From NCBI RefSeq assembly GCF_030285665.1, contig NZ_CP127295.1, forward strand, positions 2,542,001 through 2,606,000: a stretch of DNA of 64,000 nucleotides. The letters run 5' to 3'. This stretch comes from Amycolatopsis mongoliensis. GTDB lineage: Bacteria > Actinomycetota > Actinomycetes > Mycobacteriales > Pseudonocardiaceae. Position numbers and translations under genes: made by a program. The notes under the pieces were generated by a model. That model ran no database searches, was not told where the DNA came from, and saw only the letters and a program-made list of their open reading frames with translations. Positions 23,983-48,374 of the stretch are shown here, one piece after another. The number at the start of each line of letters is the position of its first letter. Position 1 is the stretch's first letter.

Positions 23983-23996
23983 TTACTCGCCGGTAA
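23983..23996. promoter_or_regulatory. TTAC-N6-GTAA palindrome, fadE5 site 1
   Basis: TTACTCGCCGGTAA, 48 bases before the fadE5 ATG, in the expected core-promoter region. Four perfect outer base pairs. It differs from the downstream-hydrolase site (28791) at only two spacer bases. Confidence 0.6.
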
Positions 23997-24006
23997 CTTC
24001 AGGATA

Positions 24007-24020
24007 TTACCTGCGGGTAA
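24007..24020. promoter_or_regulatory. TTAC-N6-GTAA palindrome, fadE5 site 2
   Basis: TTACCTGCGGGTAA, five perfect base pairs per arm, centred exactly 24 bp from site 1, so two dimers could bind side by side. Probable TetR-family operator for beta-oxidation genes (inference). Confidence 0.6.
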
Positions 24021-24084
24021 CTGGAGCAAGCAGATCCGCACTTCCGAGTATCGGAAATCCGGCCATCTTTCTGGGAAAGCGGGG

Positions 24085-24870
24085 TCAGCGCTGCCCCGGG
24101 AGCGCCGTTGTGTCGGCAGTCACCGGCATGTGCCCGTCCTCCGCACGGGCGACCAAGATCCCGCCGCGGAAGGCGATCGTCACCGCGTGCGTCCGGTCCC
24201 GTGCGGAGAGCTTGCGCAGGATGCTCTTGACGTGGGTCCGGACCGTCTCGACGGACAGGAACAGCAGTTTCGCGATCGCGGAGTTCTCGAGACCCTCGGC
24301 GACCAGCTGGAGCACCTGGTACTCGCGCCGGGACAGCGGCATCCCGCCGCGCGGCGACGGCGGGCTGTCGTGGGCGAGGTCGCCCTTCGGCACGGTCGAC
24401 CGCTTCGGCCGTGCGGTGAGCGTGGCCAGCACCGGGTCGATGTAGCGGCGCTCGGTGTGGGCTCGCCGGATCGCTTCGGCGAGCCGTCGCGAATCGATCG
24501 ACCGCGGCACGATCGCGTGCGTGCCCGCGGCGATCGCGGCCGCGAGGTACTGCTGCGTGCGATTCGTGTCACGGATCAGCGTGACCAGGATCAGCGCCGG
24601 GTCGCCGGCGTTGAGCAGCTTCGTCAGGTGGCAGTTCGGGTCGAGTGCGGAGTCGAGCACGACGACGTCCGGTTTGACCTGCTCGCACAGCTGCAGCGCG
24701 GCGTGGTGGCTGGCCGCCTGGCCGGCCCAGTGCAGCCCCTGGCTGCGGTGGACGAGCGCGGCGAGGCCGTCGCGGAAGATCGGGACCGGGTCGACGACCG
24801 CCACGCCGAGACTTCGCCCGCCGGGTCCGATCGGCCCGGTGGGCCTGCGGGTGGGCTCGATGCCGTGCAT
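24085..24870 (-). CDS. LuxR-family response-regulator-like protein
   Basis: 261-aa NarL/FixJ-type regulator. The receiver-like domain is at ~25-145: VAVVDPVPIFRDGL opens it and the putative phospho-acceptor Asp lies in VVVLDSAL. The usual conserved Lys near the end of the receiver is replaced (HAIVPRSID), and only one acidic residue is visible in the first cluster, so phosphorylation is doubtful. The DNA-binding domain at ~185-245 is typical (LSRREYQVLQLVAEGL, ETVRTHVKSILRKL). No sensor kinase is adjacent. ATG with GGAGG six bases upstream. Confidence 0.9.
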   Translation of the reverse strand: MHGIEPTRRPTGPIGPGGRSLGVAVVDPVPIFRDGLAALVHRSQGLHWAGQAASHHAALQLCEQVKPDVVVLDSALDPNCHLTKLLNAGDPALILVTLIRDTNRTQQYLAAAIAAGTHAIVPRSIDSRRLAEAIRRAHTERRYIDPVLATLTARPKRSTVPKGDLAHDSPPSPRGGMPLSRREYQVLQLVAEGLENSAIAKLLFLSVETVRTHVKSILRKLSARDRTHAVTIAFRGGILVARAEDGHMPVTADTTALPGQR

Positions 24871-25155
24871 CGTGGGCCTCCGTCTCTGCGCCGTCGCTCC
24901 TGGGACGCCGGGCGCGTCCCCTCGGTTCACGCGTCCGGCACCGTCCGGTTCCCCCTGCCGGGACCGGCCAAAAGTGACTCCTCCTGCTTGGTACGAGTCG
25001 CGATTGCGCAGCTCATGACGCCATCTCCCCCTCATGGCCTAATCGCCCGGTCACAGCAAACTCTGGGTAGAAATCCACTGGGAGAAGTCGGCTCGACCGG
25101 GCTGGGAAGGACCTGATGGGGCGGCTGGCGCTACTGAGGGTTGCCCGCTCCTTGT

Positions 25156-25716
25156 TCAACGATTTCGACGACGCTCGGATGCGGTTCGCAGCTCCGCGAA
25201 CTCCGCCGCGAGCCCGGCCGGCGTCCAGTGCGCGTTGAGACCGCTCGGATTCGGCAGCACCCACACGCAGGTGTCCCCGATCCGGTGCTCCTGGCGGCCG
25301 ACGCGCGCCTTCGGGAAGCCGAAGGCGGTCCGGTAGGCGGTGATCCCGACGACGGCGAGCCACCGAGGCTGGTACTCGAGCACCTTCGCTTCCAGGAGCT
25401 TCCCGCCTTCGCGCAGCTCGTCGTCGGTGAGCTCGTCGGCGCGGGCGGTGGTCCTGGCGACGACGTTCGTGATGCCGAGCTTCAGGTCGAGCAGCTGCTC
25501 CTGCTCGTCGGGTCTGTAGAGGCGAGGCGTGAACCCGCCCTCGTGGAGGGCCGGCCAGAAGCGGTTGCCGGGGCGGGCGAAGTGCTGTTTCAGCGCGCCC
25601 GAGTAGAGGCCGGGGTTGATGCCGCAGAAGAGAACGTCGAGGCCGGGCGCGATGACGTCCGGGATGGTCGCGTTGTGCGCGGCGGCCAGCTGGTCCTTCG
25701 TGGGTCGGGTGCTCAC
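25156..25716 (-). CDS. mug: G/U mismatch-specific DNA glycosylase
   Basis: 186-aa Mug/TDG-type uracil-DNA glycosylase that removes U or T opposite G, initiating base-excision repair. Motif LFCGINPGLYSG carries the catalytic Asn, and LPNPSGLNAHW is the second active-site motif. GTG start, 27 bases from the divergent methyltransferase gene, so the two promoters must overlap. It replaces neither UDG nor MutY and is typical of GC-rich genomes. Confidence 0.93.
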   Translation of the reverse strand: MSTRPTKDQLAAAHNATIPDVIAPGLDVLFCGINPGLYSGALKQHFARPGNRFWPALHEGGFTPRLYRPDEQEQLLDLKLGITNVVARTTARADELTDDELREGGKLLEAKVLEYQPRWLAVVGITAYRTAFGFPKARVGRQEHRIGDTCVWVLPNPSGLNAHWTPAGLAAEFAELRTASERRRNR

Positions 25717-25743
25717 GCCTTCAGTTTCCGGCACGATCGCGGG

Positions 25744-26409
25744 ATGGAGGTCACCGCGGACGGATGTTCGGTCGAGGTCTACCTGCGGTTGCCGGCCGCC
25801 GGCGAGCCGGAGATCGTGCACGCGGCGTTGCCGGCGGGGGCGTCGATCCTCGAGCTGGGGTGCGGGACCGGGCGGGTCACCCACCCGCTGGTGGAGCTGG
25901 GGCATCCCGTGGTCGCCGTGGACGACTCGCCGGCGATGCTGGCCCACGTCCGGGCCGAGACGGTGTGCGCGCGGATCGGGGACCTGGATCTCGGGCGGAC
26001 GTTCGACGCGGTGCTGCTCGGGAGTCACCTGGTCAACACGGCGCTGGATCCGGACCGGCATGCGCTGCTCGCTGCCGCTCGGCGGCACCTGTCGCCTTCG
26101 GGGCGGCTGATCGTCGAGTGGCACCCGCCGGAGTGGTTCGACACCGTCGCTTCCGGCCAGGGTGGGCGGCTCGGGGAGGTGGACGTCGAGCTGGCGGACG
26201 TGGTCCGGGGCGGGGACCTGCTGTCGGCGACCGTGCGGTATTCGGCCGGCGGGCGGCGGTGGGATCAGGAGTTCACCTGTCGCCGCCTGGCTCTCGACGA
26301 CGTGCTGACCTCGGCGGACCTGGTCTTCGATGGCTGGCTCACCGAGGACCGCAACTGGTTCGCCGCCCGGGTCGCCGAGAGTTCACCGGGAACCCGTCGC
26401 GGGGGGTAG
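25744..26409 (+). CDS. class I SAM-dependent methyltransferase
   Basis: 221-aa methyltransferase. SAM motif I is ILELGCGTGRVTHPL, followed by VVAVDDSPAML (acidic strand-2 end) and the SPSGRLIVEWHPPEWF post-II region. Substrate unknown. Start at ATG 25744; no clear ribosome site, and the short divergent spacer to mug leaves little room for a leader. Confidence 0.87.
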   Translation: MEVTADGCSVEVYLRLPAAGEPEIVHAALPAGASILELGCGTGRVTHPLVELGHPVVAVDDSPAMLAHVRAETVCARIGDLDLGRTFDAVLLGSHLVNTALDPDRHALLAAARRHLSPSGRLIVEWHPPEWFDTVASGQGGRLGEVDVELADVVRGGDLLSATVRYSAGGRRWDQEFTCRRLALDDVLTSADLVFDGWLTEDRNWFAARVAESSPGTRRGG

Positions 26410-26475
26410 CGAATTCACCACGGACCTGCGTACTCTGTGTGATCTCCCGCACAGCGCCGTACCGAGGAGGATTTC

Positions 26476-26652
26476 GTGCAGCTTCCGCTCGTCCTCGGGC
26501 TCGTCGCGCTGGTCTTGGCCGTCGCCGCTCTCGTCGTCGTTCTCGAGGATCGCCGGGCCGCCAAGCGGGCCGCCCTGCAGCGGAAGGCCCGGTTAGCGCG
26601 TCTCGGCGAAGTGGACCCGCTCGCCCCGGGCCGGCTGCACGCCGACCGGTGA
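26476..26652 (+). CDS. 58-aa single-pass membrane protein containing a TTA codon
   Basis: Small open frame with GGAGG five bases before a GTG start. Residues 2-23 form one hydrophobic helix (QLPLVLGLVALVLAVAALVV) followed by a basic tail (EDRRAAKRAALQRKARLARL) predicted to stay in the cytoplasm. Codon 40 is TTA, the rarest codon in such genomes; its three bases are also the TAA stop of the convergent VanZ gene, with which it overlaps by 60 bp. No family recognised. The strong ribosome site and clean membrane helix support it; the antisense overlap lowers confidence. Confidence 0.55.
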   Translation: MQLPLVLGLVALVLAVAALVVVLEDRRAAKRAALQRKARLARLGEVDPLAPGRLHADR

Positions 26653-27228
26653 ACGCAGGAGCGCCAGCAGCAGCGCCCCGAACACCCAGCCGACTCCCGC
26701 GCCGAACGTGTTGTTCATGAGGTCGTCCACGTCGAAGATGCGGTAGACGTACGGCGCCGTCCCGAAGTTCGCCGTGACCTGCGTGAACTCGATCAGCAAA
26801 GAGGCCGCGAAGCCGATCAGGACCGTGCCGATGAGGCCGCGGCGCCACAGCACCCGTGCGAACACGCCCAGCGGGACGAACAGCAGCACGTTCATGCACG
26901 CCTGCTGGAACGTCTGCGTCATGAACCACTGCGACAGCGGCTCGCCGTGCTTCAGCAGCTCCGTGTGGATGTCGGTGATCCACTGGAACGGGTGCAGCTG
27001 CACCGTCTGGCTCAGCCGGCGCGTGCCGGGCCCGGGCAGCGGCAGGAAGACGACCGCGAGGGTCATGCAGCCGTACAGCAGCACCGCACCGGTGGTCACG
27101 ATGCCGCGCAGGCGCAGGCCGCCGTGCCGGGCCAGCTGCGTGATCAGCTGCGGCACCAGCACCACGGTCCACAGCGCCAGGAAGCCGATGAAGCCGTACT
27201 GCAGGGCCGTGACCTGTGCGTTCGTCAT
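26593..27228 (-). CDS. VanZ-like family membrane protein
   Basis: 211-aa protein with about five membrane helices and the VanZ-like core (FQQACMNVLLFVPLGVFARVLW, LIGFAASLLIEFTQ, DVDDLMNNTFGAGVGW). VanZ homologues can lower teicoplanin susceptibility, but most actinobacterial copies have no known role. I start at ATG 27228; an earlier in-frame start would add a charged, unlikely N-terminus. Confidence 0.9.
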   Translation of the reverse strand: MTNAQVTALQYGFIGFLALWTVVLVPQLITQLARHGGLRLRGIVTTGAVLLYGCMTLAVVFLPLPGPGTRRLSQTVQLHPFQWITDIHTELLKHGEPLSQWFMTQTFQQACMNVLLFVPLGVFARVLWRRGLIGTVLIGFAASLLIEFTQVTANFGTAPYVYRIFDVDDLMNNTFGAGVGWVFGALLLALLRSPVGVQPARGERVHFAETR

Positions 27229-27321
27229 GTCACCGACGTTATGGATCTTGCCTCGGGAGCCGCTTCGGTCGAAGAGCCGGACCCCATCGGCCACTCGGCC
27301 GACCGCTGCCGGGCCGATCGG

Positions 27322-27432
27322 TCAGTCGTCCTCGCGTTCCTCCGAGCGCTCGGCCCGCCAAGCGCTGAACACCGTGCCGCCGATCAGCAGCACGACGACG
27401 GCCAGCACCACGAGTACGACCTCGATGCCCAT
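27322..27432 (-). CDS. 36-aa small membrane protein
   Basis: Short frame MGIEVVLVVLAVVVLLIGGT followed by FSAWRAERSEEREDD: one hydrophobic helix with a charged cytoplasmic tail. A GGGGGA ribosome-site-like run is four bases upstream of the ATG. It lies between the VanZ gene and an oxidoreductase without overlap. Family unknown; the composition resembles the many tiny bitopic proteins of actinobacteria. Confidence 0.5.
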   Translation of the reverse strand: MGIEVVLVVLAVVVLLIGGTVFSAWRAERSEEREDD

Positions 27433-27672
27433 TTTTCCCCCAGTTGCCGGATCGTTCGCCTCATCGCGCCCGCGTCAAGGGGTGTTACCGAACCCTCCGT
27501 GCGTGCGAGCCTGCCCGGATGGTCCAGGTGCGACTCGGCTTCGTCCTCACCGGCGAGTCCGAAGTCATAGCCGGAAAAGCGAGACGTAACCGGATGCGGC
27601 TTGCGCTGACCCGGGAATGACCACGACGCTCGGCACGTCGAAGTCTTGTGCAGGGCAACGAAAGGAAAGCTC

Positions 27673-28752
27673 ATGGCACCGGTCCGGGTCGGCATCGTCG
27701 GGCTCAGCGCGAACGGCGGCTGGGCCGCCACCGCGCACGTGCCCGCGCTGGCCGCGGTGGACGGCTACGAGCTCCGCGCGCTGAGCGGGAGCAGCGCCGA
27801 GTCGGCGCGGGTGGCCGGGGAGAAGTACGGCGTGCCGCTGACCTTCGGCGACGCCGGGGAGCTGGCGCGGCACCCGGAGGTCGACCTGGTCGTCGTCGCG
27901 GTGAAGGTGAGCGAGCACCGGGCGCTGATCGAGCCGGCGCTGGCCGCGGGCAAGCAGGTGCTGAGCGAGTGGCCGCTCGGCGTGAGCCTGGCCGAAACCG
28001 AGGCACTGGCCGAAGAGGCGAAGGACGCCAAGACGGCGGTCGGCCTGCAGGGGCGGTCCGCGCCCGCGTTGCGCTACCTGCGTGACCTCATCAAGGACGG
28101 GTACGTCGGCCGCGTGCTCTCGACGTCGTTGATCGGCTCGGGCGGGAACTGGGGGCCTTCGGTCCGCGCCGGGCGCACCTACCAGCTGCACCCCGAAGGC
28201 GGGGCGACCATGCTGACGATCCCGTTCGCACACACCGTCGACGCGTTCGACATGGTGCTCGGCCGGTTCTCCGAGCTCTCGGCGACGATGGCGACCGTCC
28301 GGCCGCGGGTGCGCGACGAGGTCACCGGCGAGTCCGTCCCGATGACCGCGCCGGACCAGATCGCCGTCAGCGGCGTGCTGACCGGCGGTGCCGTCGCGTC
28401 GCTGCACCTGCGCGGCGGGTCGTCGCCCGCCACGGACTTCCGCTGGGAGATCAACGGCACCGAGGGCACCCTGGTCGTCACCGCCGCGGACCCGCTGTTC
28501 TGGATCGCGAAGCTGACGCTGCGCGGCAGCCGGACCGGCGTGCTGGAGAAGCTCACCGTGCCCACCCGGTACGAGCTCCCGCAGCTGGCCGGGCGCAGCG
28601 CCGAGCCGTCGTACAACGTCGCGCACGCCTACGCGCGGCACCTGAAGGGCGATCTGCCGGACTTCGCGCACGCGGTGCGCGTGCACCGCGTGCTCGACGC
28701 CGTCCAGCGGTCGGCCGACACCGGGACGCGGATTCACCCGGACGCAGAGTAA
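27673..28752 (+). CDS. Gfo/Idh/MocA family oxidoreductase
   Basis: 359-aa NAD(P)-dependent dehydrogenase. The N-terminal Rossmann fold starts VRVGIVGLSANGG and the QVLSEWPLGVSL segment corresponds to the family EKP motif with Trp in place of Lys, an unusual substitution in the catalytic motif. The C-terminal alpha/beta domain contains HTVDAFDMVLG. Sugar or inositol-like substrates are typical of the family; not predictable here. GGAAAG three bases upstream of the ATG. Confidence 0.9.
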   Translation: MAPVRVGIVGLSANGGWAATAHVPALAAVDGYELRALSGSSAESARVAGEKYGVPLTFGDAGELARHPEVDLVVVAVKVSEHRALIEPALAAGKQVLSEWPLGVSLAETEALAEEAKDAKTAVGLQGRSAPALRYLRDLIKDGYVGRVLSTSLIGSGGNWGPSVRAGRTYQLHPEGGATMLTIPFAHTVDAFDMVLGRFSELSATMATVRPRVRDEVTGESVPMTAPDQIAVSGVLTGGAVASLHLRGGSSPATDFRWEINGTEGTLVVTAADPLFWIAKLTLRGSRTGVLEKLTVPTRYELPQLAGRSAEPSYNVAHAYARHLKGDLPDFAHAVRVHRVLDAVQRSADTGTRIHPDAE

Positions 28753-28790
28753 CTGTTACCGGCGGTTGTAGCTTTTCCGCTAACTCCGCC

Positions 28791-28804
28791 TTACTCTCGG
28801 GTAA
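28791..28804. promoter_or_regulatory. TTAC-N6-GTAA palindrome at hydrolase start
   Basis: TTACTCTCGGGTAA; its last A is the first base of the hydrolase ATG. Same core as the fadE5 and etfD sites. Repressor bound here would cover the start codon and the expected transcription start of a short-leader mRNA. Confidence 0.5.
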
Positions 28805-29583
28805 TGGACGACGTTGTCTATGACCGCGAGGGCCGGGGCGAGCCGCTGGTGCTGATCCACGGCATCGGCCACCGCCGTCAGGCGTGGGCGCCGGTGTTCC
28901 CGCTGCTCACGCCCCATCGAGACGTCATCGCCGTGGACCTGCCGGGCTTCGGCGACTCGCCCGAGCCGTCCGGCGGGTACGGCGTCGAGCCCGCGCTGGT
29001 CATGTTCAAGGAGCTCTTCACCGAGCTGGGCCTCGGCCGGCCGCACGTCGCGGGCAACTCGCTCGGCGGCCTGCTGTCGCTGGCACTCGGCCAGGCCGGG
29101 CTCGTCCGCAGCGTCACGGCGTTGTCGCCGGCCGGGCTGTGGAACCGGACGCAGAAGATGTACGCGATCGCCACGCTCAAGGCCCATCGCGCGCTCGCTC
29201 AGCGCACACCACCGCACGTCGTGCGCCGCATCGCCGCGACCCCGGCCGGGCGCAAGGCGCTGACCGGGATGATCGTCGGAAAGCCGGGCCGGCTGAGTCC
29301 GGACGCCGTCGTCGAGGACGCCCACGCGCTCGCGACCGCGCCGGGCTTCGAGCCCACCGCCGCGCAGTCCCGCGGCGACTTCCGCTTCACCGGCCCGGTC
29401 ACCGGCGTCCCGGTGACCGTCGCCTGGGCCGAGCACGACCGGATCCTCGCCCGGCCGCGCGTCGCCGACCTGCGGAAGGTCGCTCCCGAAGGGACGTTCC
29501 GGCTGTTGCCCGGCTGCGGGCACGTGCCGATGAACGACGACCCGGAACTCGTCGCGCGGGTGCTGCTCCAGGGAAGCCGTTAG
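28804..29583 (+). CDS. alpha/beta hydrolase
   Basis: 259-aa alpha/beta-hydrolase-fold protein. Oxyanion segment LVLIHGIGHRRQAW, nucleophile elbow GNSLGG, acid AEHDRI and His in GCGHVPM form a complete triad. No signal peptide. Esterase or lipase-like activity on a lipophilic substrate is plausible; the upstream palindrome shared with fadE5 and etfD hints at a lipid-catabolic role (inference). Confidence 0.9.
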   Translation: MDDVVYDREGRGEPLVLIHGIGHRRQAWAPVFPLLTPHRDVIAVDLPGFGDSPEPSGGYGVEPALVMFKELFTELGLGRPHVAGNSLGGLLSLALGQAGLVRSVTALSPAGLWNRTQKMYAIATLKAHRALAQRTPPHVVRRIAATPAGRKALTGMIVGKPGRLSPDAVVEDAHALATAPGFEPTAAQSRGDFRFTGPVTGVPVTVAWAEHDRILARPRVADLRKVAPEGTFRLLPGCGHVPMNDDPELVARVLLQGSR

Positions 29584-29696
29584 GTGACATTCGCTTTACG
29601 TCCGTCTTTTGACCCTGGTAGCCGACTGCTCCGCGAGGCAGAATCCTCCGCCGTGCGCCCGTAAGGGGACCTGGGCGCGAATCGGAGGAAACACGC

Positions 29697-31388: not shown

Positions 31389-31425
31389 TCCGGTTTTTCC
31401 AAGACACCGGGTCGACAATGGATCC

Positions 31426-31752
31426 ATGACGACCTGGGCAGAAGTCGTGCGCCTGGCCTCGGAACTTCCCGAGGTCGAGGCGTCGACCTGGTACCGCACG
31501 CCCGCGCTGAAGGTGGCGGGCAAGGGTTTCGCGCGGCTGCGCACCGAGGCCGAAGGCGGCCTGGTCGTGATGTGCGGGCTCGACGAGAAGGCCGCGTTGC
31601 TGGATTCCGGCGACGCGGCCTTCTTCACGACCGCGCACTACGACGGACACGGCTCGATCATCGTCGACCTCGAGAAGGTCGACGTCGATCAGCTGCGTGA
31701 GCTGCTCGAAGAGGCGTGGCGGCGGAAGGCGCCACGGCGGCTCCTCACCTGA
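31426..31752 (+). CDS. MmcQ/YjbR family protein
   Basis: 108-aa single-domain protein of the MmcQ/YjbR (CyaY-like, double-wing) family, often listed as DNA-binding. Typical N-terminus WAEVVRLASELPEVEAST and C-terminal helix VDQLRELLEEAWRRKAP. Specific role unknown. The 3' end overlaps the convergent acetyltransferase by eight bases. Confidence 0.88.
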   Translation: MTTWAEVVRLASELPEVEASTWYRTPALKVAGKGFARLRTEAEGGLVVMCGLDEKAALLDSGDAAFFTTAHYDGHGSIIVDLEKVDVDQLRELLEEAWRRKAPRRLLT

Positions 31753-32275: not shown

Positions 32276-32283
32276 TTCTCCCC

Positions 32284-32661: not shown

Positions 32662-32668
32662 GCGCCCG

Positions 32669-32674
32669 AGTATA
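32669..32674 (-). promoter_or_regulatory. -10 box of leaderless Ddn-type gene
   Basis: Consensus-like TATACT followed by seven bases and the ATG, in an unusually A/T-rich stretch (32671-32700) for this genome. The -35 region is not clear. Confidence 0.55.
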
Positions 32675-32749
32675 TCAACAAGCGATGAATTAATCGATCG
32701 GGTGACCCCGGCTCCCGGCGCGCGCCGCGCCGATGGTGGGATATGGCGC

Positions 32750-33848: not shown

Positions 33849-35074
33849 CCCACGCCGGGGACGCGGTCGCGCGGCTGGTCCGGGACGAGGGCACCCGGGT
33901 ACTGGCCACGCTGGTCCGCGTCACCGGCAGCGTCGACCTGGCCGAGGACGCGGTCCAGGACGCCGTCGTGCGCGCACTGGAGACGTGGCCGCGCGACGGC
34001 GTCCCGGGCAACCCGCGCGGCTGGCTCCTGGTGGCGGCCCGCCGTCGCGCGGTGGACGTGGTCCGCCGCGAAGCGAAGCGGCTCGGGAAGGAGGCGGACG
34101 CGATGCCGGCCGTCGACCCGTTCCCGGACCCGGTTTCGGTCCGCGACGACCTGCTGAGGTTGGTCTTCACGTGCTGCCACCCGGCGTTGTCGCTGGACGC
34201 GCAAGTCGCTTTGGCGCTCCGGACGTTGGGCGGTTTGTCGACGTTGGAGGTCGCGCGCGCCCTGCTGGTCCCCGAGGCGACGATGGCGAAGCGCCTGACG
34301 CGGGCGAAGCAGAAGATCGCCCAGGCGCACATCCCGTACCGCGTGCCGTCCGCGGAAGAGCTCCCCGCACGGCTGTCGGGTGTGGCGTCGACGGTGTACC
34401 TGATCTTCAACGAGGGGTACACGGGCCGCGGTCAGCTCCTCGCCGAAGCGGTCCGCCTGGCCCGGCTGCTGGCGGAGCTGATGCCGGACGAACCGACGGC
34501 GCTGGGGTTGCTGGCGTTGGTCCTGCTTCAGGACGCCCGCCGTTCTTCCCGGTTCGACGCGTCCGGGTTGCCGGTGTTGCTTGCTGAGCAGGACCGGTCG
34601 GCGTGGGATTTCGAGCTGATCAAGGAGGGTGTCGCCCTGGTGGGGGCCGGCCTGCGTCGCACGCCGTCGGTGCCGAACGCGTACGTGGTCCAAGCGGCGA
34701 TCGCGGCCTGCCACGACCTGGCGCCGTCGTATTCGGAGACGAACTGGGACGCGGTGATCTCCTGGTACGACGTGCTGCTGTCGATCCAGGACACGGCGGT
34801 GATCCGCCTGAACCGCGCGGCGGCGGTGGCGGAAAGGGACAGCCCCGCTGCGGGGCTGGCGCTGGTGGATGCGTTGCGGGGCTTGGAAGAGTACCCGTGG
34901 TGGCACGCGTCGCGGGCGGAGTTGTTGCACCGCTTGGGATCGCCTTCGGCAGCCGGGGCTCTGGAGCGTGCGGTGGAAACCGGTTTGCCCGCCGCTCATG
35001 CGGCTCACTTGCGTGCCCGAATACAAAAAGAAAACCCCGGAGAAAATGTCCGGGGTTTCACCGAGAGCGGATGA
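33845..35074 (+). CDS. RNA polymerase sigma factor, ECF42 type
   Basis: 409-aa ECF sigma factor with region 2 (DLAEDAVQDAVVRALETWP, RGWLLVAARRRAVDVVRRE) and region 4 (LSTLEVARALLVPEATMAKR). A ~230-residue C-terminal TPR-like extension replaces an anti-sigma factor; it includes YLIFNEGYTGRG, RLNRAAAVAE and WWHASRAELLHRLG. No anti-sigma gene is adjacent, as expected for ECF42. The last ~14 codons run through the terminator of the opposite-strand tRNA gene, and the TGA lies inside the tRNA 3' end. Confidence 0.93.
   Translation: MTHAGDAVARLVRDEGTRVLATLVRVTGSVDLAEDAVQDAVVRALETWPRDGVPGNPRGWLLVAARRRAVDVVRREAKRLGKEADAMPAVDPFPDPVSVRDDLLRLVFTCCHPALSLDAQVALALRTLGGLSTLEVARALLVPEATMAKRLTRAKQKIAQAHIPYRVPSAEELPARLSGVASTVYLIFNEGYTGRGQLLAEAVRLARLLAELMPDEPTALGLLALVLLQDARRSSRFDASGLPVLLAEQDRSAWDFELIKEGVALVGAGLRRTPSVPNAYVVQAAIAACHDLAPSYSETNWDAVISWYDVLLSIQDTAVIRLNRAAAVAERDSPAAGLALVDALRGLEEYPWWHASRAELLHRLGSPSAAGALERAVETGLPAAHAAHLRARIQKENPGENVRGFTESG
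35032..35058 (-). terminator. rho-independent terminator of tRNA-Gly
   Basis: 10-bp stem (35032-35041 with 35049-35058). Read leftward it is followed by a T-rich tract (TTTTCTTTTTGTATT), a canonical intrinsic terminator seven bases after the tRNA. It lies wholly inside the sigma-factor coding sequence. Confidence 0.88.
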
Positions 35075-35136
35075 CGGGAATCGAACCCGCGTATTCAGCT
35101 TGGGAAGCTGATGTTCTACCATTGAACTACATCCGC
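35066..35136 (-). tRNA. tRNA-Gly (anticodon CCC)
   Basis: 71-nt cloverleaf: acceptor GCGGATG pairs with CATCCGC, discriminator T, anticodon arm TCAGC-TTCCCAA-GCTGA giving CCC, and T-arm GCGGGTTCGATTCCCGT. CCA is not encoded. It reads GGG codons. Confidence 0.97.
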
Positions 35137-38782: not shown

Positions 38783-38851
38783 GATTCGGCGCGCGAAGCC
38801 TTCTCCCGTGCCAGGCTCCCTAGGTCGTCTCGACCCCGGAGGTGGCGAGGA

Positions 38852-41800: not shown

Positions 41801-43315
41801 GTCCATCCGGCCGTCACGATCGCCAGGACCGTCGAGCCGAAGGTCGTTCGCCCGGGCGACACCATCACCTCGGCGATCACCGTCACCAACACCGGCGACA
41901 GCGTGCTGCGCGACGTCTCCGTGGCCGATCCCGGCGCACCGGCATGCGCCAAATCCCTGGGTTCACTCGAACCGCGAGCCACGCAGGACTACAGCTGCAC
42001 TCAAGTTGCCGGCGAAGCCGACTTCACGGCCACCGCGGCCGTCACCGCCACCGACGCCACGAACCGTCCCGTGACCGCCACCGCCGGGGAACCGGTCGAT
42101 GTCATCCACCCGGCGGTCACCATCACGAACGACGCCACGCCCGCGCAGGTCCGGCAAGGCGACACCGTCACGTTCACCCTCGTCGTCACGAACACCGGCG
42201 ATGTCCCGCTGACCGACGTGTCCATTGCGGACAGTCGCACTCCGGCGTGCGCTCAGTCCATCGGCACCCTCCCTCCCGGCGCTCTCCAGCACCACTCCTG
42301 CACGGTAAACGCCGGCACCGACAGTTTCGTGAGCTCCGCCACCGCAACCGGCACCGATCCGACGAACCGCCAGGTCAGCGCGACCGACGAGGCCGCCTAC
42401 ACCGTCCTGCACCCCGCACTCTCCGTCACACACGACACGAAGGGCCCCTTCCGCCAAGGCGACACCGTGCCGTTCACGGTCACCGTCACCAACACCGGCG
42501 ACGTCCCGCTGACCGCCGTGACCCTCACCGACGGCCAAGCCCCCACCTGCGCGAGGACGTTCGACAAGCTGGAAGCCGGGCAAGCGCAGAAGTACGACTG
42601 CACCATGACGGCGCCGAACGACGACGTCGTGAGCACCGTCGAAGCCAAGGCGACCGCGCCGGTCGGCCCGCCGATCACGGCCGGCGCGCCCGCGAAAGTC
42701 GACGTCATCCACCCGGAAGTGCAGCTCACGAAGAACGCGAAGCCCGGCACCGTCCGGGTGGGCGACGAGGTCACGTTCACCATCGACGTCCGCAACACCG
42801 GCGATGTCCCGCTGACCAGCGTGTCCATTGTGGATGACGACTGCGCCGCAAAGTTCGACAAGCTCGACGTCGCGGCCACCCAGACCTACACCTGCACCCG
42901 CAAAGCGCCGGACGACGACTTCACCGCCACCGCCGAAGTAACGGGAACGGACCCGACCCATCGCTCCGTGCAGTCGAAGGCCGAAGCGAAAGTCGACGTC
43001 GTCCACCCCGAGATCGCCCTGATGAAAGACGCGGCGCCGTACCAAGTCCACCCGGGCGACACCGTCACGTTTTCGATTCTGGTCAAGAACACCGGCGACG
43101 TGCCGCTCACCGCCGTGTCCGTCGTGGACGATCACACGACGTCGTGCGCGCACACCACGCCGGACCTGACTGTCGACGGCGAAATCACCTACACCTGCAC
43201 GACGATCGCGGGCAAGGAGGGCTTCACCGGCAAGGCGACCGTCACCGGCCAAGATCCGACCGGCCGCCCCGTGACGGCGTCCGGCGAGGCCACCTTCACC
43301 GTCCGAAGCGGCTGA
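38852..43315 (+). CDS. giant secreted protein with eleven DUF11-like tandem repeats
   Basis: 1,487-aa exported protein. Signal peptide PLPERPLRLVLVLALVFLAS ending near AGA-ADA at ~30. Residues ~30-360 form a unique N-terminal domain (GYDDVVYGDFLYAGNGVLRC, LNWAGNTTGTTCG, GFDCVGGWSIALVYAYPS). Then eleven ~100-aa repeats follow, starting at 39941 and spaced 300, 300, 300, 303, 303, 357, 303, 303, 300 and 294 bp. Each carries GD.V.F.I.V.NTGDVPLT, a C-terminal C...C pair and a closing VDVIHP. This is the DUF11/CARDB-like Ig fold of adhesins and S-layer proteins. No LPXTG, sorting helix or catalytic domain is seen, so it is probably released or held non-covalently. Start may be GTG 38852 or TTG 38858. 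Confidence 0.93.
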   Translation: MPLPERPLRLVLVLALVFLASALVPAAGAADAPPFAVGYDDVVYGDFLYAGNGVLRCPVAADHAPTAGPVDTPAACANTADRKDTLVNDDFFMQWADVDADPGTFDSASASVSIPPGARIVFARLNWAGNTTGTTCGLREGVPAVPPPGNPATQVVRLSVGSAKSVDVKPSSFAEDGPYYSAHADVTGQFAGAPTGSALDVTVGNVWAPRGFDCVGGWSIALVYAYPSRNPDFAPNKRKVVVYDGHVRQASDVPAETTITGFRAAAADAHIGVTAYDGDWGGSGDQFLVDGTPAAEPATGGTSNFFVSNADNAAAPGVKNNFSVDAKAFNVDTIPAGATSARLGFVTSGDTYLAQNMAFSVPVPELQVALRATRPKAHAGEPVTFAVAVTNPGGVAASGVQVADEGFPACAKPLGTLAPGQTVTYDCTGPAPADGFTNTVKATGASALGDALEGTATAAVDVVHPSLAMTKTADKPAYRVGDTATFTIKVTNTGDTGLSGLQVTDAKAPSCALAGALAPGESRTTTCTAKAPIADGVNTASAAGTDELGKQVTATADAPAPTIAPAVEITKTADPPVIHAGDAVMFSVAVKNTGDSPLAPVKVTDDTTTSCSRTFDGLAAGATQTYTCTANPSTTTTSHVTATGTDLSGQPVAATASATVTVITPALTLAKDAAPGVVRAGDPITFTISVANAGDVPLTEVAVTDDRTPACAKAIGALPPQGRQTYTCTAPAPPDGFTNTAAASGKDQLGRTVKVTDDAVVDVIHPGVALAAQASPAAVREGDTVTWTITATNTGDVPLTGVTVADDQVAGCAKPLGTLQPQATSAYTCTSVAGATGFTNKPAVTGVDPTARPVTASAEAAFAVQHPGVAVTAEVTGGPFREGDAVPLRITVRNTGDVPLTGLRVTDAQALGKLATSTGATGPQARATGCAQVLDGALEPGATRDFGCTLTAPADDVTAAVRVTGTPPVGPLVTAEGSAHVDVVHPAVTIARTVEPKVVRPGDTITSAITVTNTGDSVLRDVSVADPGAPACAKSLGSLEPRATQDYSCTQVAGEADFTATAAVTATDATNRPVTATAGEPVDVIHPAVTITNDATPAQVRQGDTVTFTLVVTNTGDVPLTDVSIADSRTPACAQSIGTLPPGALQHHSCTVNAGTDSFVSSATATGTDPTNRQVSATDEAAYTVLHPALSVTHDTKGPFRQGDTVPFTVTVTNTGDVPLTAVTLTDGQAPTCARTFDKLEAGQAQKYDCTMTAPNDDVVSTVEAKATAPVGPPITAGAPAKVDVIHPEVQLTKNAKPGTVRVGDEVTFTIDVRNTGDVPLTSVSIVDDDCAAKFDKLDVAATQTYTCTRKAPDDDFTATAEVTGTDPTHRSVQSKAEAKVDVVHPEIALMKDAAPYQVHPGDTVTFSILVKNTGDVPLTAVSVVDDHTTSCAHTTPDLTVDGEITYTCTTIAGKEGFTGKATVTGQDPTGRPVTASGEATFTVRSG
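39941..43312 (+). repeat. eleven ~300-bp in-frame tandem repeats
   Basis: Repeat boundaries at about 39941, 40241, 40541, 40841, 41144, 41447, 41804, 42107, 42410, 42710 and 43004. All differences are multiples of three. Repeat six carries an insertion rich in Thr/Gly (GKLATSTGATGPQARATG). Repeats differ throughout, so they are old rather than recently amplified. Confidence 0.9.
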
Positions 43316-43442
43316 ACGGAGTAACGCCGAAGCGTCCGATTGCCGCGGAATTCGTGTCGGTCGTCGAATGCCCGGCGAAGAAATGTGACCAGTGCGTTCG
43401 CAGGGTTCTCGCTGTAATCGTTCCGTGATACGTTCTCGCGCC

Positions 43443-44159
43443 GTGTCCCCCATTGGTGAACGTGCTCGCGTGGTGATGGTGTCACTCAGTGTGCTGCTCG
43501 GCGTTTTCTCCGCCGCGACAGGCACCTGGATGGCGACCGCCGAAGGAAACACCGCTGAGCTCGGCGCCGCGGCCCTGGTGCTGCCCGACGCCCCGGCCGG
43601 CTCCGGGGGCGGCAGCGGCACCGACCTGGAGGGCGGCAAGGCGCCGGCCCCGAAGCAGGCCACGACCGACGCCCCCGCGTCGACGACGTCCAGCGCGGCA
43701 CCGGCTCCGACCGAGACGTCCGAAGCGCCGCAGCCGACGACGTCCGAAGCGGCTCCGCCGCCGAGCACCAAGCCCGTGGCCCGCGTCGCGTCCTCGACCG
43801 TCGAGCAGGTGATCTCCCTCGTCAACGACGAGCGCTCGCAGGCGGGCTGCAAGCCGCTGGCCGAGGAACCGCACCTGACCGAGGCTGCGCAGGACTACAG
43901 CGACGACATGTCGGCCCGGAACTTCTTCGCCCACACCAACCCCGAAGGCGTGACGTTCGACCAGCGCATCAAGAACGCCGGCTATTCGAAGCCGGGCGCG
44001 GAGAACATCGCGAAGGGGCAGACGTCCGCGTCGCAGGTCATGACCGCGTGGATGAACTCCGAGGGCCACCGCGCGAACATCCTGAACTGCTCGCTCACCA
44101 AGATCGGCGTCGGCTTCACCAAGGCCGGCAACTACTGGGTCCAGGACTTCGGGTACTGA
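43443..44159 (+). CDS. CAP/SCP-domain secreted or membrane-anchored protein
   Basis: 238-aa protein from GTG 43443: an N-terminal signal-anchor helix (VVMVSLSVLLGVFSAATG), a ~75-residue Ala/Pro/Thr/Ser-rich linker and a C-terminal CAP (YkwD-type) domain. CAP residues are visible in FFAHTNPEG, AENIAKG and NSEGHRANILNC, and QDFGY ends the protein. Bacterial YkwD proteins have no settled activity. In-frame GTG 43425 or ATG 43476 could also be the start. Follows the giant repeat protein on the same strand, 127 bases away. Confidence 0.9.
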   Translation: MSPIGERARVVMVSLSVLLGVFSAATGTWMATAEGNTAELGAAALVLPDAPAGSGGGSGTDLEGGKAPAPKQATTDAPASTTSSAAPAPTETSEAPQPTTSEAAPPPSTKPVARVASSTVEQVISLVNDERSQAGCKPLAEEPHLTEAAQDYSDDMSARNFFAHTNPEGVTFDQRIKNAGYSKPGAENIAKGQTSASQVMTAWMNSEGHRANILNCSLTKIGVGFTKAGNYWVQDFGY

Positions 44160-44165
44160 GCGCCG

Positions 44166-45170
44166 CTAAGCCGGCTTGTTCCACCGCTCCGCGATGTCGC
44201 CGTAGCGGGCCAGCACGGTCGCGCGCAGGTCGGGATCCGTCCGCGGCACCGGCTCGATGAACACCTCGGTGACGTCGTTGAACGAGTCGGTCAGCTCGGC
44301 CGCGATCCGGACGCAGGCGCGTTCGACCTCCCCGGCGCCGAGGGAGTCGTCGAAGTCGACGCGGGTGCAGACCAGCACCTGGTCGGTGCCCATCAGCATG
44401 GTCTGCAGGTCCACGACGGCCTCGATCTCCGGCGCGGCCGAGAGGTGGTCGCGGACGCCGCGGACGATTTCCGGGTTGGCCTGGCGGCCGATGAGCAGGC
44501 CGCGGTTGGTCCGCCCGAGCAGGTAGGCGACGAAGGCGAGCAGCACGCCGATGACGATCGACGCGGCGCCGTCCCAGACCTCCGAGCCGGTGAGCTGGTG
44601 CAGCCCGATGCCGCCGAAGGCGACCAGCAGGCCGATCAGCGCGGCCGAGTCTTCGAAGAGCACGGTCTTCGGCGTCGGGTCGTCGATCAGGCGGAGGTAT
44701 GCCCAGAATGACCGGTTCTCGGCACGGGACTCCCGGACGGTCTGGCGCACCGCCTGCACCCACGAAGTGCCTTCGAGCAGGAACGCCACCGCCAGCACGA
44801 TGTAGCTGAGGATCGACGTGCTCTGCGCCTCGCCGTGCCCGAACAGCGTCGAAACGCCCTCGTAGAGCGCGAACATCGAGCCCGACGCGAAAATCGACAC
44901 CGCCGCGAGCAGCGACCAGAAGTAGCGCTCCTTGCCGTAGCCGAAGGGGTGCACGCGGTCGGCCGGCCGGTCGGAGCGTTTCAACGCCGTCAGCAGCAGG
45001 ACTTCGGTGAAGGTGTCCGCGACCGAGTGCGCCGCTTCGGAGAGCATCGCGCCCGAGCCGGTGATGATGCCCGCGATCAGCTTCATGATGGCGATCGCCA
45101 GGTTCACCCCGCCGGCGAGCAGGACGGTCAGCGTGCTTTCGCCGCCGGAGTTTTCGGGTTCCTCGCTCAC
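44166..45170 (-). CDS. cation diffusion facilitator family transporter
   Basis: 334-aa CDF antiporter exporting a divalent metal. Six helices; the transport site is formed by SEAAHSVADTF on helix 2 (His and Asp) and FEDSAALIGLL on helix 5 (Glu and Asp). A C-terminal cytoplasmic regulatory domain follows. Metal not determined. GTG 45170 is the only start consistent with the first helix; it sits inside an 18-bp palindrome (CGCTCACC-CT-GGTGAGCG). Confidence 0.92.
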   Translation of the reverse strand: MSEEPENSGGESTLTVLLAGGVNLAIAIMKLIAGIITGSGAMLSEAAHSVADTFTEVLLLTALKRSDRPADRVHPFGYGKERYFWSLLAAVSIFASGSMFALYEGVSTLFGHGEAQSTSILSYIVLAVAFLLEGTSWVQAVRQTVRESRAENRSFWAYLRLIDDPTPKTVLFEDSAALIGLLVAFGGIGLHQLTGSEVWDGAASIVIGVLLAFVAYLLGRTNRGLLIGRQANPEIVRGVRDHLSAAPEIEAVVDLQTMLMGTDQVLVCTRVDFDDSLGAGEVERACVRIAAELTDSFNDVTEVFIEPVPRTDPDLRATVLARYGDIAERWNKPA

Positions 45171-45181
45171 CCTGGTGAGCG
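45164..45181. promoter_or_regulatory. 18-bp palindrome over the CDF start codon
   Basis: CGCTCACC-CT-GGTGAGCG, perfect 8-bp arms. It covers the GTG of the CDF gene and is 7 bases from the DUF742 stop. In mRNA it could hide the start codon; in DNA it could bind a metal-responsive repressor. Neither is proven. Confidence 0.4.
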
Positions 45182-45187
45182 TAATGG

Positions 45188-45646
45188 TCAGAGGCGGCGC
45201 AGGCCGTGCAGCACGCGTTCCATGAGCGCCACCGCCGGACGGCCGTCGGTGTTCACCCGGTTGTCGTGGATCGTGATCAGGCCCTGTTCCGCCATGTCGT
45301 CGAGCAGCACCCGGGCGACGCCGAGCGGCACGCTGAGCCTGGCGGCGACCTCGGCGACCGAGCGCGGGTGGTGGCACAGGGTGCGCACCGAGCGGAACTC
45401 GCCGCTCAGCCGGGCGCCGTTCCAGTGCGAGCCGGTCCGGGTCGAGACCATCGCCTCGATCGCCAGGTGCCGCCGCGACTGCGTCCGGCCGCGCGTGAGG
45501 ACGTAGGGGCGCACGAGGGTCCGCTGCATGGGGAGCTGGCCGGCCGGCTCCATGCGGAGCTCGCCGACGGGCGGGATATCGCGGAGGGCGTGCCGGCCGG
45601 TGGCTTCCCCGAACCCGGTTGCCGTGGTCCGCAGGTCCTCGCCCAT
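45188..45646 (-). CDS. DUF742 protein (conservon-type, orphan)
   Basis: 152-aa DUF742 winged-helix-like protein: RPYVLTRGRT, LAIEAMVSTR, EFRSVRTLCHHPRSVAEVAA and GLITIHDN are the family landmarks. DUF742 normally sits in actinobacterial conservons with a sensor histidine kinase, a roadblock protein and a small GTPase. None of those flank this copy, so it is an orphan whose partners must lie elsewhere. Followed 17 bases later by the CDF gene. Confidence 0.88.
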   Translation of the reverse strand: MGEDLRTTATGFGEATGRHALRDIPPVGELRMEPAGQLPMQRTLVRPYVLTRGRTQSRRHLAIEAMVSTRTGSHWNGARLSGEFRSVRTLCHHPRSVAEVAARLSVPLGVARVLLDDMAEQGLITIHDNRVNTDGRPAVALMERVLHGLRRL

Positions 45647-46031
45647 CCGCGCTGCCCCCTGATTCCGTGATCGTCGACATGGCCTCGCTGGCAGCGATGG
45701 CGGCGAGGAAAAGCCAGGATACGCCGGATGACGGGGCTTTTGGCCAAGGTTTCTTCTTGGCCTGATGGGCCATTTCGGTGAATATCGTGAACATTATTCG
45801 GGTAATCGATTGCCGTTACGAAATCCCAGCTAGTGGACGTGTTCGGCGGCTGGTGACAACCCGTAGCCCGACGGCTACGAGAATGAGAACGGACTGCTCG
45901 ATTATCGCCGTTGTCCCGTGGGAATGGTCGAATTCATGCCGACCTGGCAATAAGTCAGCAATGCGCCCGCGGCCAGCGGGAACGTGGGCGGGCGAAGCCG
46001 GAGGACGACAACCACGGCAGGCTGGTGGCCG
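45647..46031. other. gene-free stretch between DUF742 and etfD
   Basis: About 385 bases with no convincing coding frame. Segment 45770-45835 is A/T-rich for this genome and probably contains the leftward DUF742 promoter. A small hairpin CGTAGCC-CGAC-GGCTACG lies at 45862-45879. Nothing else recognised. Confidence 0.4.
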
Positions 46032-46067
46032 ACGGCCCGGCCAGGACATCCGTCGTGGCCGGGCCGT
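46032..46067 (-). terminator. terminator downstream of etfD
   Basis: Perfect 12-bp GC-rich stem (46032-46043 with 46056-46067), eight bases past the etfD stop. No T-tract. Confidence 0.65.
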
Positions 46068-46074
46068 GAGTGCG

Positions 46075-48303
46075 TCAGGCTTCTTCGGAGGCCGTCTCCG
46101 CCAGTGACGGCGCGCCGAGGGCGATCGGCTTCGGCTCCGGCTTGCGCTTGACCGACTCCAGCAGCATCTGCGCGACGTCGACGATCTCGACCTTCTCGCT
46201 CGCGGTGCCGTCGGCCTGCCGCGCGGTGAGGCCGTCGTTCAGCATCACCTTGCAGAACGGGCAGCCGGTCGCGATCTTCGACGGCGCGGTGCCGAGGGCC
46301 TCGTCGACGCGCTCGACGTTGATCCGCTTGCCGATCTTCTCTTCCATCCACATGCGGGCGCCGCCGGCACCGCAGCACATCGATTTGTCGCCGTGCCGCG
46401 GCATCTCGCGCAGCTGCGCGCCGGTCGCGCCGACGAGCTCGCGCGGTGCCTCGTACACCTTGTTGTGGCGGCCGAGGTAGCACGGGTCGTGGTAGGTGAC
46501 GTCCTCGGCGACCGGCGCCACCGGCACCAGCTGCTTCTCCCGCACCAGCCGGTTCAGCAGCTGCGTGTGGTGCACGACGTCGAACTGGCCGCCCAGCTCC
46601 GGGTACTCGTTGGCGAGGGTGTTGAAGCAGTGCGCGCAGGTCACGACGACCTTGCGTGTCTTGCGCTCCCGGCCCTCGAACACCGAGTTCAGGATCTCGA
46701 CGTTCTGCTGGGCCAGCATCTGGAAGAGGAACTCGTTGCCCGCGCGGCGGGCCGGGTCACCGGTGCAGGACTCCTCCGAGCCGAGCACCTTGTACTTCAC
46801 GTCGGCCATGTGCAGCAGCTCGGCGACCGCGCGCGTCGTCTTCTTCGCGCGGTCCTCGAACGCGCCGGCGCAGCCGACCCAGAACAGGTACTCGGCGTCG
46901 CCCATGTCGCCGTCGAACACCGGGACCTCGAAGTCCAGGTCCTCGGTCCAGGCCAGCCGGTCCTTGGCGTTCTGGCCCCACGGGTTGCCCTTGTTCTCCA
47001 GGTTCTTGAACATGCCGTTCAGCTCGCTGGGGAACGACGACTCGATCATCACCTGGTAGCGGCGCATGTCGACGATGTGGTCGACGTGCTCGATGTCGAC
47101 CGGGCACTGCTCGACGCAGGCGCCGCAGCTGGTGCAGGACCACAGGACGTCGGGGTCGATGACGCCGCCGTCGTCGCCGATCAGGGCTTTCTGGGACTCC
47201 GCGATGGCAAGGACGTCGATGCCCGCGTACATGTTGTCGCCGGACAGGCCGACCTCGTCGCCCGCCATGTCGCGCTTGCCGCCGGCCAGCAGGTACGGCG
47301 CCTTCGCGTAGGCGTGGTCACGCAGCTGCGTGATCAGCAGCTTCGGCGACAGCGGCTTGCCGGTGTTCCACGCGGGGCACTGCTCCTGGCAGCGGCCGCA
47401 CTCGGTGCAGGTGGAGAAGTCCAGCCAGCCCTTCCAGCTGAAGTCCTCGATCTTGCCGACGCCGAAGGTGTCCTCGTCCGGGTCGGCTTCCTCGAGGTCG
47501 AGGACCTGGCCGCCGCTCATCATCGGCTTGAGCGCGCCGAGGGCGACGCCGCCGTCCTGCTCGCGCTTGAAGTAGATGTTGAAGAACGCGCTGAAGCGGT
47601 GCCAGGCGATGCCCATGGTCATCGTGCGCGCGACGACGATCAGCCACACGGTGGCGCTCATCAGCTTGACGAACGCGAAGACCGTGACCAGGTTCGGGCT
47701 GGCCGGCAGCAGCTCGCCGATCGGGTTCGAGACGAAGGCGGCCCAGGTCGGCGTCTCGTGCGCGCCGAGCGCGGCCTTCGCGGCGCGGACGCCGATGATG
47801 CCGATGCCCTCGATCAGGACGACGGCCTCGATGAAGTACGCCCACTTGAAGTTCGAGCCCTGGAAGCGGCTCTGGCGGTCGGCGCGGCGCGGGTGGTTGC
47901 GCTGGCGGATCGCCATCAGCACCAGGATGCCGACGATCGTCCCGACCCCGAGCAGCTCCATGAGCAGCTGGAACGGCGGGAAGTCGTCGAGGACCGGCCA
48001 GCCCCAGCTCGGGACGAAGACCTCGCCGTAGGCCTCGAACAGGGCGAGCGAGCCGAGCAGGAAGCCCCACATGACGAGCCAGTGCGCGGGGCCGACGCTG
48101 CGCTTGCGGTTCATCCGCGTGTGCGCGGCGAACTCCTTGATCAGCGTCTTCATGCGCGGCACGAACGGCCCGTTGCGCGTCGAGTCGGGCTGCCCGAGGC
48201 GGATCACCCGCACGAAACGGGCGATCGTCGCGGCGAACATGCCCCAGGCGACGAGGCCGAGCACGACGGAGATCCCGCCGAGCGTCAGTTGCAGAGCGCC
48301 CAT
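46075..48303 (-). CDS. etfD: membrane Fe-S oxidoreductase, EtfD type
   Basis: 742-aa membrane protein matching mycobacterial Rv0338c (EtfD), which takes electrons from electron-transfer flavoprotein into the quinone pool during beta-oxidation. About five N-terminal membrane helices (residues ~1-240, haem-type gamma-subunit-like) are followed by two [4Fe-4S] ferredoxin motifs, CTECGRCQEQCP (~300) and CTSCGACVEQCP (~390). Two cysteine-rich CCG domains then follow (CAHCFNTLANEYPELGG, DPCYLGRHNKVYEAPRELVG, KSMCCGAGGARMW, GCPFCKVMLNDG). A palindrome shared with fadE5 lies 58 bases upstream. Single-gene unit. Confidence 0.92.
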   Translation of the reverse strand: MGALQLTLGGISVVLGLVAWGMFAATIARFVRVIRLGQPDSTRNGPFVPRMKTLIKEFAAHTRMNRKRSVGPAHWLVMWGFLLGSLALFEAYGEVFVPSWGWPVLDDFPPFQLLMELLGVGTIVGILVLMAIRQRNHPRRADRQSRFQGSNFKWAYFIEAVVLIEGIGIIGVRAAKAALGAHETPTWAAFVSNPIGELLPASPNLVTVFAFVKLMSATVWLIVVARTMTMGIAWHRFSAFFNIYFKREQDGGVALGALKPMMSGGQVLDLEEADPDEDTFGVGKIEDFSWKGWLDFSTCTECGRCQEQCPAWNTGKPLSPKLLITQLRDHAYAKAPYLLAGGKRDMAGDEVGLSGDNMYAGIDVLAIAESQKALIGDDGGVIDPDVLWSCTSCGACVEQCPVDIEHVDHIVDMRRYQVMIESSFPSELNGMFKNLENKGNPWGQNAKDRLAWTEDLDFEVPVFDGDMGDAEYLFWVGCAGAFEDRAKKTTRAVAELLHMADVKYKVLGSEESCTGDPARRAGNEFLFQMLAQQNVEILNSVFEGRERKTRKVVVTCAHCFNTLANEYPELGGQFDVVHHTQLLNRLVREKQLVPVAPVAEDVTYHDPCYLGRHNKVYEAPRELVGATGAQLREMPRHGDKSMCCGAGGARMWMEEKIGKRINVERVDEALGTAPSKIATGCPFCKVMLNDGLTARQADGTASEKVEIVDVAQMLLESVKRKPEPKPIALGAPSLAETASEEA

Positions 48304-48360
48304 CGTTCGGGTGCCTTTCGTCCGGATAAAACTGTGGTGGTGCGGGGAGACTAACCTTTC

Positions 48361-48374
48361 TTACTGATGAGTAA
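48361..48374. promoter_or_regulatory. TTAC-N6-GTAA palindrome upstream of etfD
   Basis: TTACTGATGAGTAA, five perfect base pairs per arm, 58 bases before the etfD ATG. Same core and similar distance as at fadE5. Confidence 0.6.

Follow-up and report, generated by a model that had tools for sequence, protein, structure and literature searches.

A palindrome conserved upstream of fadE5 and etfD as the predicted operator of an acyl-CoA-responsive TetR repressor in Amycolatopsis mongoliensis

We analysed a 64-kb stretch of the A. mongoliensis genome (hereafter the window), which belongs to a single 10.81 Mb contig (genome G000, contig G000:C1), and found that the palindrome TTACYNNNNRGTAA occurs twice upstream of fadE5 and once upstream of etfD, positions that are conserved in nearly all genomes of the order examined. 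The palindrome probably serves as operator for a TetR dimer of the FdmR/FasR group that responds to long-chain acyl-CoA, with an FdmR orthologue, encoded 32 kb from fadE5 and just outside the window, as the main binder here and long-chain acyl-CoA as the ligand releasing the repressor. This assignment builds on the sites, their positions and conservation, and the presence and linkage of fdmR, and takes the presumed binding, repression and ligand from other species. An earlier reading of the window made without database searches (the sequence-only reading) had likewise named a TetR-family acyl-CoA sensor as the likely binder, to which FdmR now gives a candidate.

Occurrence of the palindrome in the window and the genome

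The window contains four copies of TTACYNNNNRGTAA, at 23983-23996, 24007-24020, 28791-28804 and 48361-48374, exactly where the sequence-only reading had placed four near-identical palindromes, and 100 dinucleotide shuffles of the window contained none. A scan of the window returned no TTAC-N6-GTAA beyond these four sites, as that reading had also stated, and one additional place only when one mismatch was allowed. Two of the copies lie 24 bp apart, 47 and 71 bp before the start of fadE5 (22100..23935, minus strand), which encodes an acyl-CoA dehydrogenase of 611 amino acids matching PDB entry 6kse, labelled FadE5, with an E value of 4.8e-271. The copy at 48361..48374, which reads TTACTCATCAGTAA on the etfD strand, lies 57 bp before the start of etfD (46075..48303, minus strand). 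This gene encodes a membrane Fe-S reductase of 742 amino acids whose best PDB match is 9ojn (E 6e-226), labelled iron-sulfur-binding reductase; the product is presumably EtfD, which is thought to pass the electrons of beta-oxidation to the respiratory chain. The fourth copy shares one base with the ATG of an alpha/beta hydrolase gene.

Genome-wide, the strict palindrome was found at 14 sites, compared to one site for a reversed control pattern. With up to one mismatch the excess was weaker (88 sites versus 47), so that we regard the strict motif as the informative one. Of these 14 sites, 13 precede an apparent start codon by 5 to 85 bp, and the remaining one is that overlapping the hydrolase ATG; start codons were judged from open reading frames, ribosome-binding sites and domain limits rather than from annotation. 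As the stretches of 130 bp upstream of called starts make up only 10.2% of the window, it is very unlikely that all 13 loci concerned fall upstream of starts by chance (nominally about 1e-13). Genes of beta-oxidation, acyl-CoA or envelope-lipid metabolism are found at 10 of the 13 loci. The sequence-only reading had expected the motif to gather at the starts of lipid genes rather than inside genes, and all 14 sites do lie at starts, mostly of lipid genes.

Besides fadE5 and etfD, the genes with a site include fadA, a thiolase gene (79.6% to the thiolase of locus L085; site 47 bp before the start), a 3-hydroxyacyl-CoA dehydrogenase gene (17 bp), the crotonyl-CoA carboxylase/reductase gene ccr (44 bp), an acyl-CoA dehydrogenase gene divergent from a helicase gene (16 bp) and a gene for a protein resembling short-chain dehydrogenases/reductases (SDR) and fatty-acyl reductases (85 bp). 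Directly downstream of the site in locus L022 lies a thiolase gene in another frame. Another site lies between a TetR gene and a divergent GDSL lipase-accD pair, 70 and 69 bp from the respective starts. In locus L021, a site at position 5001 (G000:C1:4508961) lies 43 bp before the MmpA gene and 13 bp from the opposite gene, and one at position 11143 (G000:C1:4515103) lies 5 bp before the PgfA gene. By their NCBIfam names, MmpA and PgfA are proteins of trehalose-lipid and envelope-lipid trafficking; Amycolatopsis-like lineages are said to lack mycolic acids. The remaining sites precede a phosphoglycerate mutase gene (63 bp) and a gene for a PucR-type regulator (L023; 28 bp) or overlap the hydrolase start.

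The hydrolase gene (28804..29583, plus strand) encodes 259 amino acids with PDB relatives at E 2.5e-17 or weaker, and its strict site spans 28791..28804. A search of 20 genomes yielded five other orthologues, and of the six this is the only one with the site; it is missing from all five others, even from that of the closest relative, G108. As the site is absent from these five, we do not count the hydrolase as a stable member of the group. Its membership is doubtful, and the link that the sequence-only reading had drawn from the hydrolase to fadE5 and etfD was not upheld.

Conservation and promoter position of the operators

A survey of 120 genomes drawn from the order yielded 841 strict motifs compared to 131 for the control pattern, with values above the control in 106 of the 120 genomes. 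The fadE5 gene was present in 117 genomes, and its upstream region was examined in 50 of these from eleven families, only the best match being used where a genome has two. In the first 30, a strict site was found in 29 and a site with up to one mismatch in all 30; 20 more from other families all carried a site with up to one mismatch, giving 50 of 50. Additional fadE5 sites are visible in families f3, f8 and f12 when motif and fadE5 positions are compared. The motif is nearly confined to the upstream regions: at 30 fadE5 loci, 56 matches with up to one mismatch were found in 9,000 bp upstream, compared to a single one in 136,000 bp elsewhere. For etfD, 30 genomes showed a strict site in 22 cases and one with up to one mismatch in 29, the exception being G048, and 34 such matches upstream stood against none in 150,000 bp elsewhere. 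The proposal of the sequence-only reading that fadE5 and etfD share their control thus gains weight from conservation at 50 of 50 and 29 of 30 loci, from the near absence of the motif elsewhere in these loci and from the preference of the genome sites for lipid genes, all of which are consistent with joint regulation. In the available part of the paper on the EtfD structure (PMC13083937), nothing was found on the regulation of etfD.

The tandem arrangement (TTACYNNNNRGTAR, 10 bp, TTACYNNNNRGTAA) was found at no fewer than 119 loci in about 85,000 named prokaryote genomes. Among the matches listed, a fadE5 relative follows the tandem after 9 to 186 bp in 60 of 119 loci, one of these relatives (L252) being just 32% identical. 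These listed matches with fadE5 include Streptomyces sp. G-G2, Kineosporia and Nanopelagicales, and the tandem stands with a 98 to 99% identical FadE5 in Amycolatopsis sp. NBRC 101858, A. vancoresmycina and A. eburnea. The other 59 of the 119 listed loci have no fadE5 in the stretch, including ones from Rhodococcus and Bathyarchaeota. The Rhodococcus contigs of this kind (L274, L285, L288, L296-L298) may reflect another target. Many Bathyarchaeota contigs (L239, L242, L247, L249 and others) match the tandem with no fadE5 nearby, either by chance in AT-rich DNA or through an unrelated repeat.

The arrangement of the fadE5 promoter suggests how the operators would act. Read on the fadE5 strand, the window contains the -35-like element TTGCTC (24029-24024), CAG, the distal operator TTACCCGCAGGTAA (24007..24020), the -10-like element TATCCT (24006-24001), GAAG and the proximal operator TTACCGGCGAGTAA (23983..23996). 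The two promoter elements (24024..24029 and 24001..24006, minus strand), which are proposed from the sequence, are 17 bp apart; the distal operator fills the spacer between them and is immediately followed by the -10-like element, while the proximal operator is predicted to cover the transcription start. The usual fadE5 layout can be written as TTGCnn-N3-[operator, 14 bp]-TAnnnT-N4-[operator]. The exact -35 place is occupied by TTG in 28 of 50 fadE5 promoters and the exact -10 place by TAnnnT in 37 of 50, counts that are favoured by the choice, for each promoter, of the site with the best-scoring neighbours. The spacing to a second site is 24 bp in 25 of the 50 promoters and 25 bp in 8; another 8 lack a second site. 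Since the distal operator commonly fills the gap between the -35-like and -10-like elements, we regard this as a repressor position: a dimer on the distal site would fill the spacer, and one on the proximal site would cover the presumed start. Directly upstream of fadE5 and on the same strand lies a gene of the LuxR/response-regulator type (24085-25035, minus strand); a GerE-domain gene is likewise found upstream of fadE5 in G024 (L089).

FdmR, FasR and other candidate binders

FdmR is Rv0238. The available part of PMC12403877 describes it as a repressor that responds to long-chain acyl-CoA and acts on genes of fatty-acid degradation and modification, and that of PMC9262360 names it a key regulator of fadE5. 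In f7 genomes, a TetR gene stands within the group fadE5, thiolase, SDR, MaoC, TetR and GH3 (Pfam assignments made on L167 only). This group fits the order Rv0237-Rv0244c of Mycobacterium tuberculosis, so that we take the f7 TetR protein to be Rv0238. A search with the f7 protein found FdmR orthologues in 51 of the 120 genomes, G000 included, namely in 17 of 17 f1, 16 of 16 f7, 13 of 16 f13, 4 of 5 f12 and 1 of 2 f5 genomes. The G000 orthologue (G000:C1:2531831-2532412) lies about 10 kb to the left of the window, at a distance of 31.7 kb from fadE5. It shares 43% identity with the f7 copy beside fadE5 and, like it, contains the Pfam domain TetR_C_46; its best solved relatives are 3f1b (4e-40) and then 6o6p (1e-19), the latter presumably FasR. 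In a tree for which the tool warned that long branches meet, 31 FdmR sequences formed a single clade (98/98), and the FasR sequences likewise (98/98). Where fdmR and fadE5 lie on one contig, they are 9 to 73 kb apart in 12 of 13 f1 genomes and 57 to 82 kb apart in 10 of 10 f13 genomes. The upstream regions of fdmR, examined at 30 loci plus those of G000 and G011 out of the 51 genomes, carried a motif with up to one mismatch in 20 of the 30. The motif is also denser in genomes with FdmR (588 matches, control 61, in 51 genomes) than in the 69 without it (253, control 70).

With FdmR as the main binder, the regulator would occupy the -35/-10 spacer and the start region of fadE5 when fatty acids are lacking, and would also sit upstream of etfD, fadA, the 3-hydroxyacyl-CoA dehydrogenase gene, ccr and others, so that RNA polymerase would be blocked. 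Long-chain acyl-CoA would then free FdmR from the DNA, and the first oxidation step would be switched on together with the electron outlet and the remaining steps of the cycle.

Several observations weigh against FdmR in this role. The fdmR and fadE5 genes are distant in G011 (f12) and in G098 (f1), where a 5.26 Mb contig carries them at its opposite ends. Ten of the 30 fdmR loci lack a site with up to one mismatch, and G000 itself has upstream of fdmR only two sites, 16 bp apart, with two mismatches each; G011 shows stronger sites at the place of this pair. The centre bases differ between fdmR-promoter and fadE5 sites. In 69 of the 120 genomes the best match to FdmR has an E value of 1.5e-28 or weaker, with at most 35% identity where listed, and for these reasons we take FdmR as absent from them. 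All 26 FdmR-less genomes examined nevertheless keep the fadE5 operator, which means that FdmR cannot be the sole binder across the order.

This leads to FasR, an acyl-CoA-sensing TetR protein that may be the ancestral and still active binder, FdmR being a paralogue that joined later or took over some of the sites; on balance we rather doubt this version, while a part for FasR as an ancestral co-binder of these operators is plausible from the sequence comparisons. Matches to a FasR model (E <= 1e-20) were found in 120 of 120 genomes, compared to 51 for FdmR. In the compact, FdmR-less genomes G090 (f4) and G031 (f9), both with fadE5 operators, a comparison of the TetR proteins left FasR as the sole strong reciprocal match, with 211 bits and 41 bits for the next (TetR proteins compared: G090 14 of 14, G031 15 of 16, with two truncated loci added). 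The 25-bp operator TACCCGTACGTAGAACTCGCCAGTA of the FasR crystal structure, as given in the available part of PMC7382501, contains both TAC-N6-GTA and TACYN4RGT. It has two TAC-N6-GTA-like cores; one of them, read on the opposite strand, is TACTGGCGAGT, a form shared by several fadE5 sites, and the second is AACTCGCCAGTA; the full TTACYNNNNRGTAA is absent from this 25-mer. A random 25-mer of 65% GC would contain both pattern types with a probability of about 3e-4, a value for a pattern chosen after the sequence had been seen. By hand calculation, the two cores, 13 bp apart, are turned by about 86 degrees, and the available text on the crystal structure describes FasR dimers roughly 90 degrees apart on the same DNA (PMC7382501).

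The upstream regions of fasR, examined at 30 loci and four more out of 120 genomes, give evidence in both directions. At the f1 loci, a one-mismatch site with a centre of the fadE5 type was found in 14 of 14 examined (of 17 f1 genomes), including G000 at 1249085. A G-rich centre is common to fadE5-type and fasR-upstream sites and lacking in fdmR-upstream sites, a comparison that is not independent, as the fasR set represents one family. In contrast, an upstream site is absent from all 16 f7 fasR loci and from all four loci for TetR proteins of the FasR group in G090, G047, G057 and G009. The best match to the FasR model is weak in G009 and G089 (E about 4e-30; 105.6 bits for the G009 protein), and the G009 protein (L128) is a third paralogue, yet fadE5 of G009 carries a strict site; perhaps the finding of this paralogue only is due to the assembly, which is 94% complete. 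FasR is, moreover, described as an activator, which in mycobacteria activates fatty-acid synthesis, whereas the sites found here precede degradation genes and are in the position of a repressor, and the elimination in the compact genomes covered TetR proteins only. The third group of FasR/FdmR-like TetR paralogues comprises L128 and L359 (G031), which are 71% identical, and also the G000 protein encoded at G000:C1:2159878-2160459, whose membership was judged from its FasR-model score only.

A broader form of this idea, which we put forward tentatively and would not wager on, is that TTACYNNNNRGTAA serves as one operator code for two acyl-CoA-sensing TetR paralogues, with FasR as the repressor that ancestrally controlled beta-oxidation throughout the actinomycetes and FdmR as a later addition, or a protein lost elsewhere, that doubles the control. 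If so, the making and burning of fatty acids would be coupled via fadE5 and etfD, through identical sensors acting on one DNA word.

Binding of the palindrome by a non-TetR regulator is improbable. The elimination was done among TetR proteins, and the gene of the PucR-type regulator (L023) is itself preceded by a site; against this, the accessible text of PMC9262360 has the TetR protein FdmR controlling fadE5, and the operator of FasR in that of PMC7382501 holds the same core. We give hardly any credence to binding through autoregulation by the SACE_7040-family TetR protein (G000:C1:4064634-4065173), although a strict site lies in the divergent promoter between its gene and the GDSL lipase-accD pair. 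Of 30 loci with an orthologue elsewhere, only 2 carry a strict upstream site (3 matches with up to one mismatch); the site is for this reason considered lineage-specific, and the candidate was rejected. MadR (TCTGTGxxxxxxxGT), MftR (T-N2-GGCA-N5-TGCC-N2-A) and Rv0158 were dismissed because their operators differ. A TetR gene in G048 (L087) has a site, and its product matched none of the TetR proteins compared at more than 51 bits (G090 14 of 14, G009 14 of 15, G047 8 of 32, G057 7 of 39).

Relation to known systems and neighbouring features

FdmR (Rv0238) reportedly governs a regulon in Mycobacterium marinum, as said to be described by Dong in PNAS in 2021. The likeness to what could be gathered of that system lies in a long-chain acyl-CoA-responsive TetR regulator of fadE5, an orthologue of which occurs in this genome in linkage with fadE5. 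Differences are the Amycolatopsis-like host, the sites at the etfD, ccr, fadA, 3-hydroxyacyl-CoA dehydrogenase, MmpA and PgfA loci, and the occurrence of the operator also in genomes without FdmR. FasR (Rv3208), known in mycobacteria as activator of the fas-acpS operon, is similar as a TetR sensor of long-chain acyl-CoA with the same TAC-N6-GTA core in its operator, as far as the available text shows. In mycobacteria, lipid or acyl-CoA metabolism is also controlled by the TetR proteins KstR, KstR2, MadR, BkaR and MftR; the operators compared, those of MadR and MftR, differ. In the literature available to our search, no report was found of this motif or of an FdmR/FasR regulon outside mycobacteria. 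We infer a known kind of system, an acyl-CoA-released TetR repressor of beta-oxidation, in a new host lineage, with binding, ligand and expression here assumed by analogy. It comes with a clear predicted operator, etfD as a conserved predicted member and an apparent range of the operator wider than that of its known regulator.

FadE5 stands at the entrance of beta-oxidation and EtfD at its electron exit. A single switch for the pair, in nearly all genomes of the order examined, suggests how actinobacteria avoid running beta-oxidation without an electron outlet. The results also give an operator and promoter map for the engineering of lipid use in antibiotic producers, and make it testable whether FasR, the activator of type I fatty acid synthase (FAS-I), likewise controls the breakdown of fatty acids in genomes that lack FdmR.

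Across the operator from etfD and divergent from it lie an SMR-type small multidrug efflux gene and then a TetR gene (48367-49343, plus strand); the SMR homology begins at residue 31 of the open reading frame, at about 48457. The TetR protein (48783-49343) is weakly BetI-like, and its gene lies 0.4 kb from the etfD site. The sequence-only reading had stated that the binder is not encoded beside any of the sites, which needs qualification in view of this different TetR gene; we do not favour its product as the binder of the etfD site. A second etfD-like copy of 56% identity is present at G000:C1:7458108-7460201, and a second etfD match at E <= 1e-100 was found in all 7 examined genomes of this genus, as opposed to none of the 23 others. 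Of the RNA families, only one matched the window above its gathering score, through a tRNA gene at 35066-35136 (minus strand; Rfam RF00005, 76 bits).

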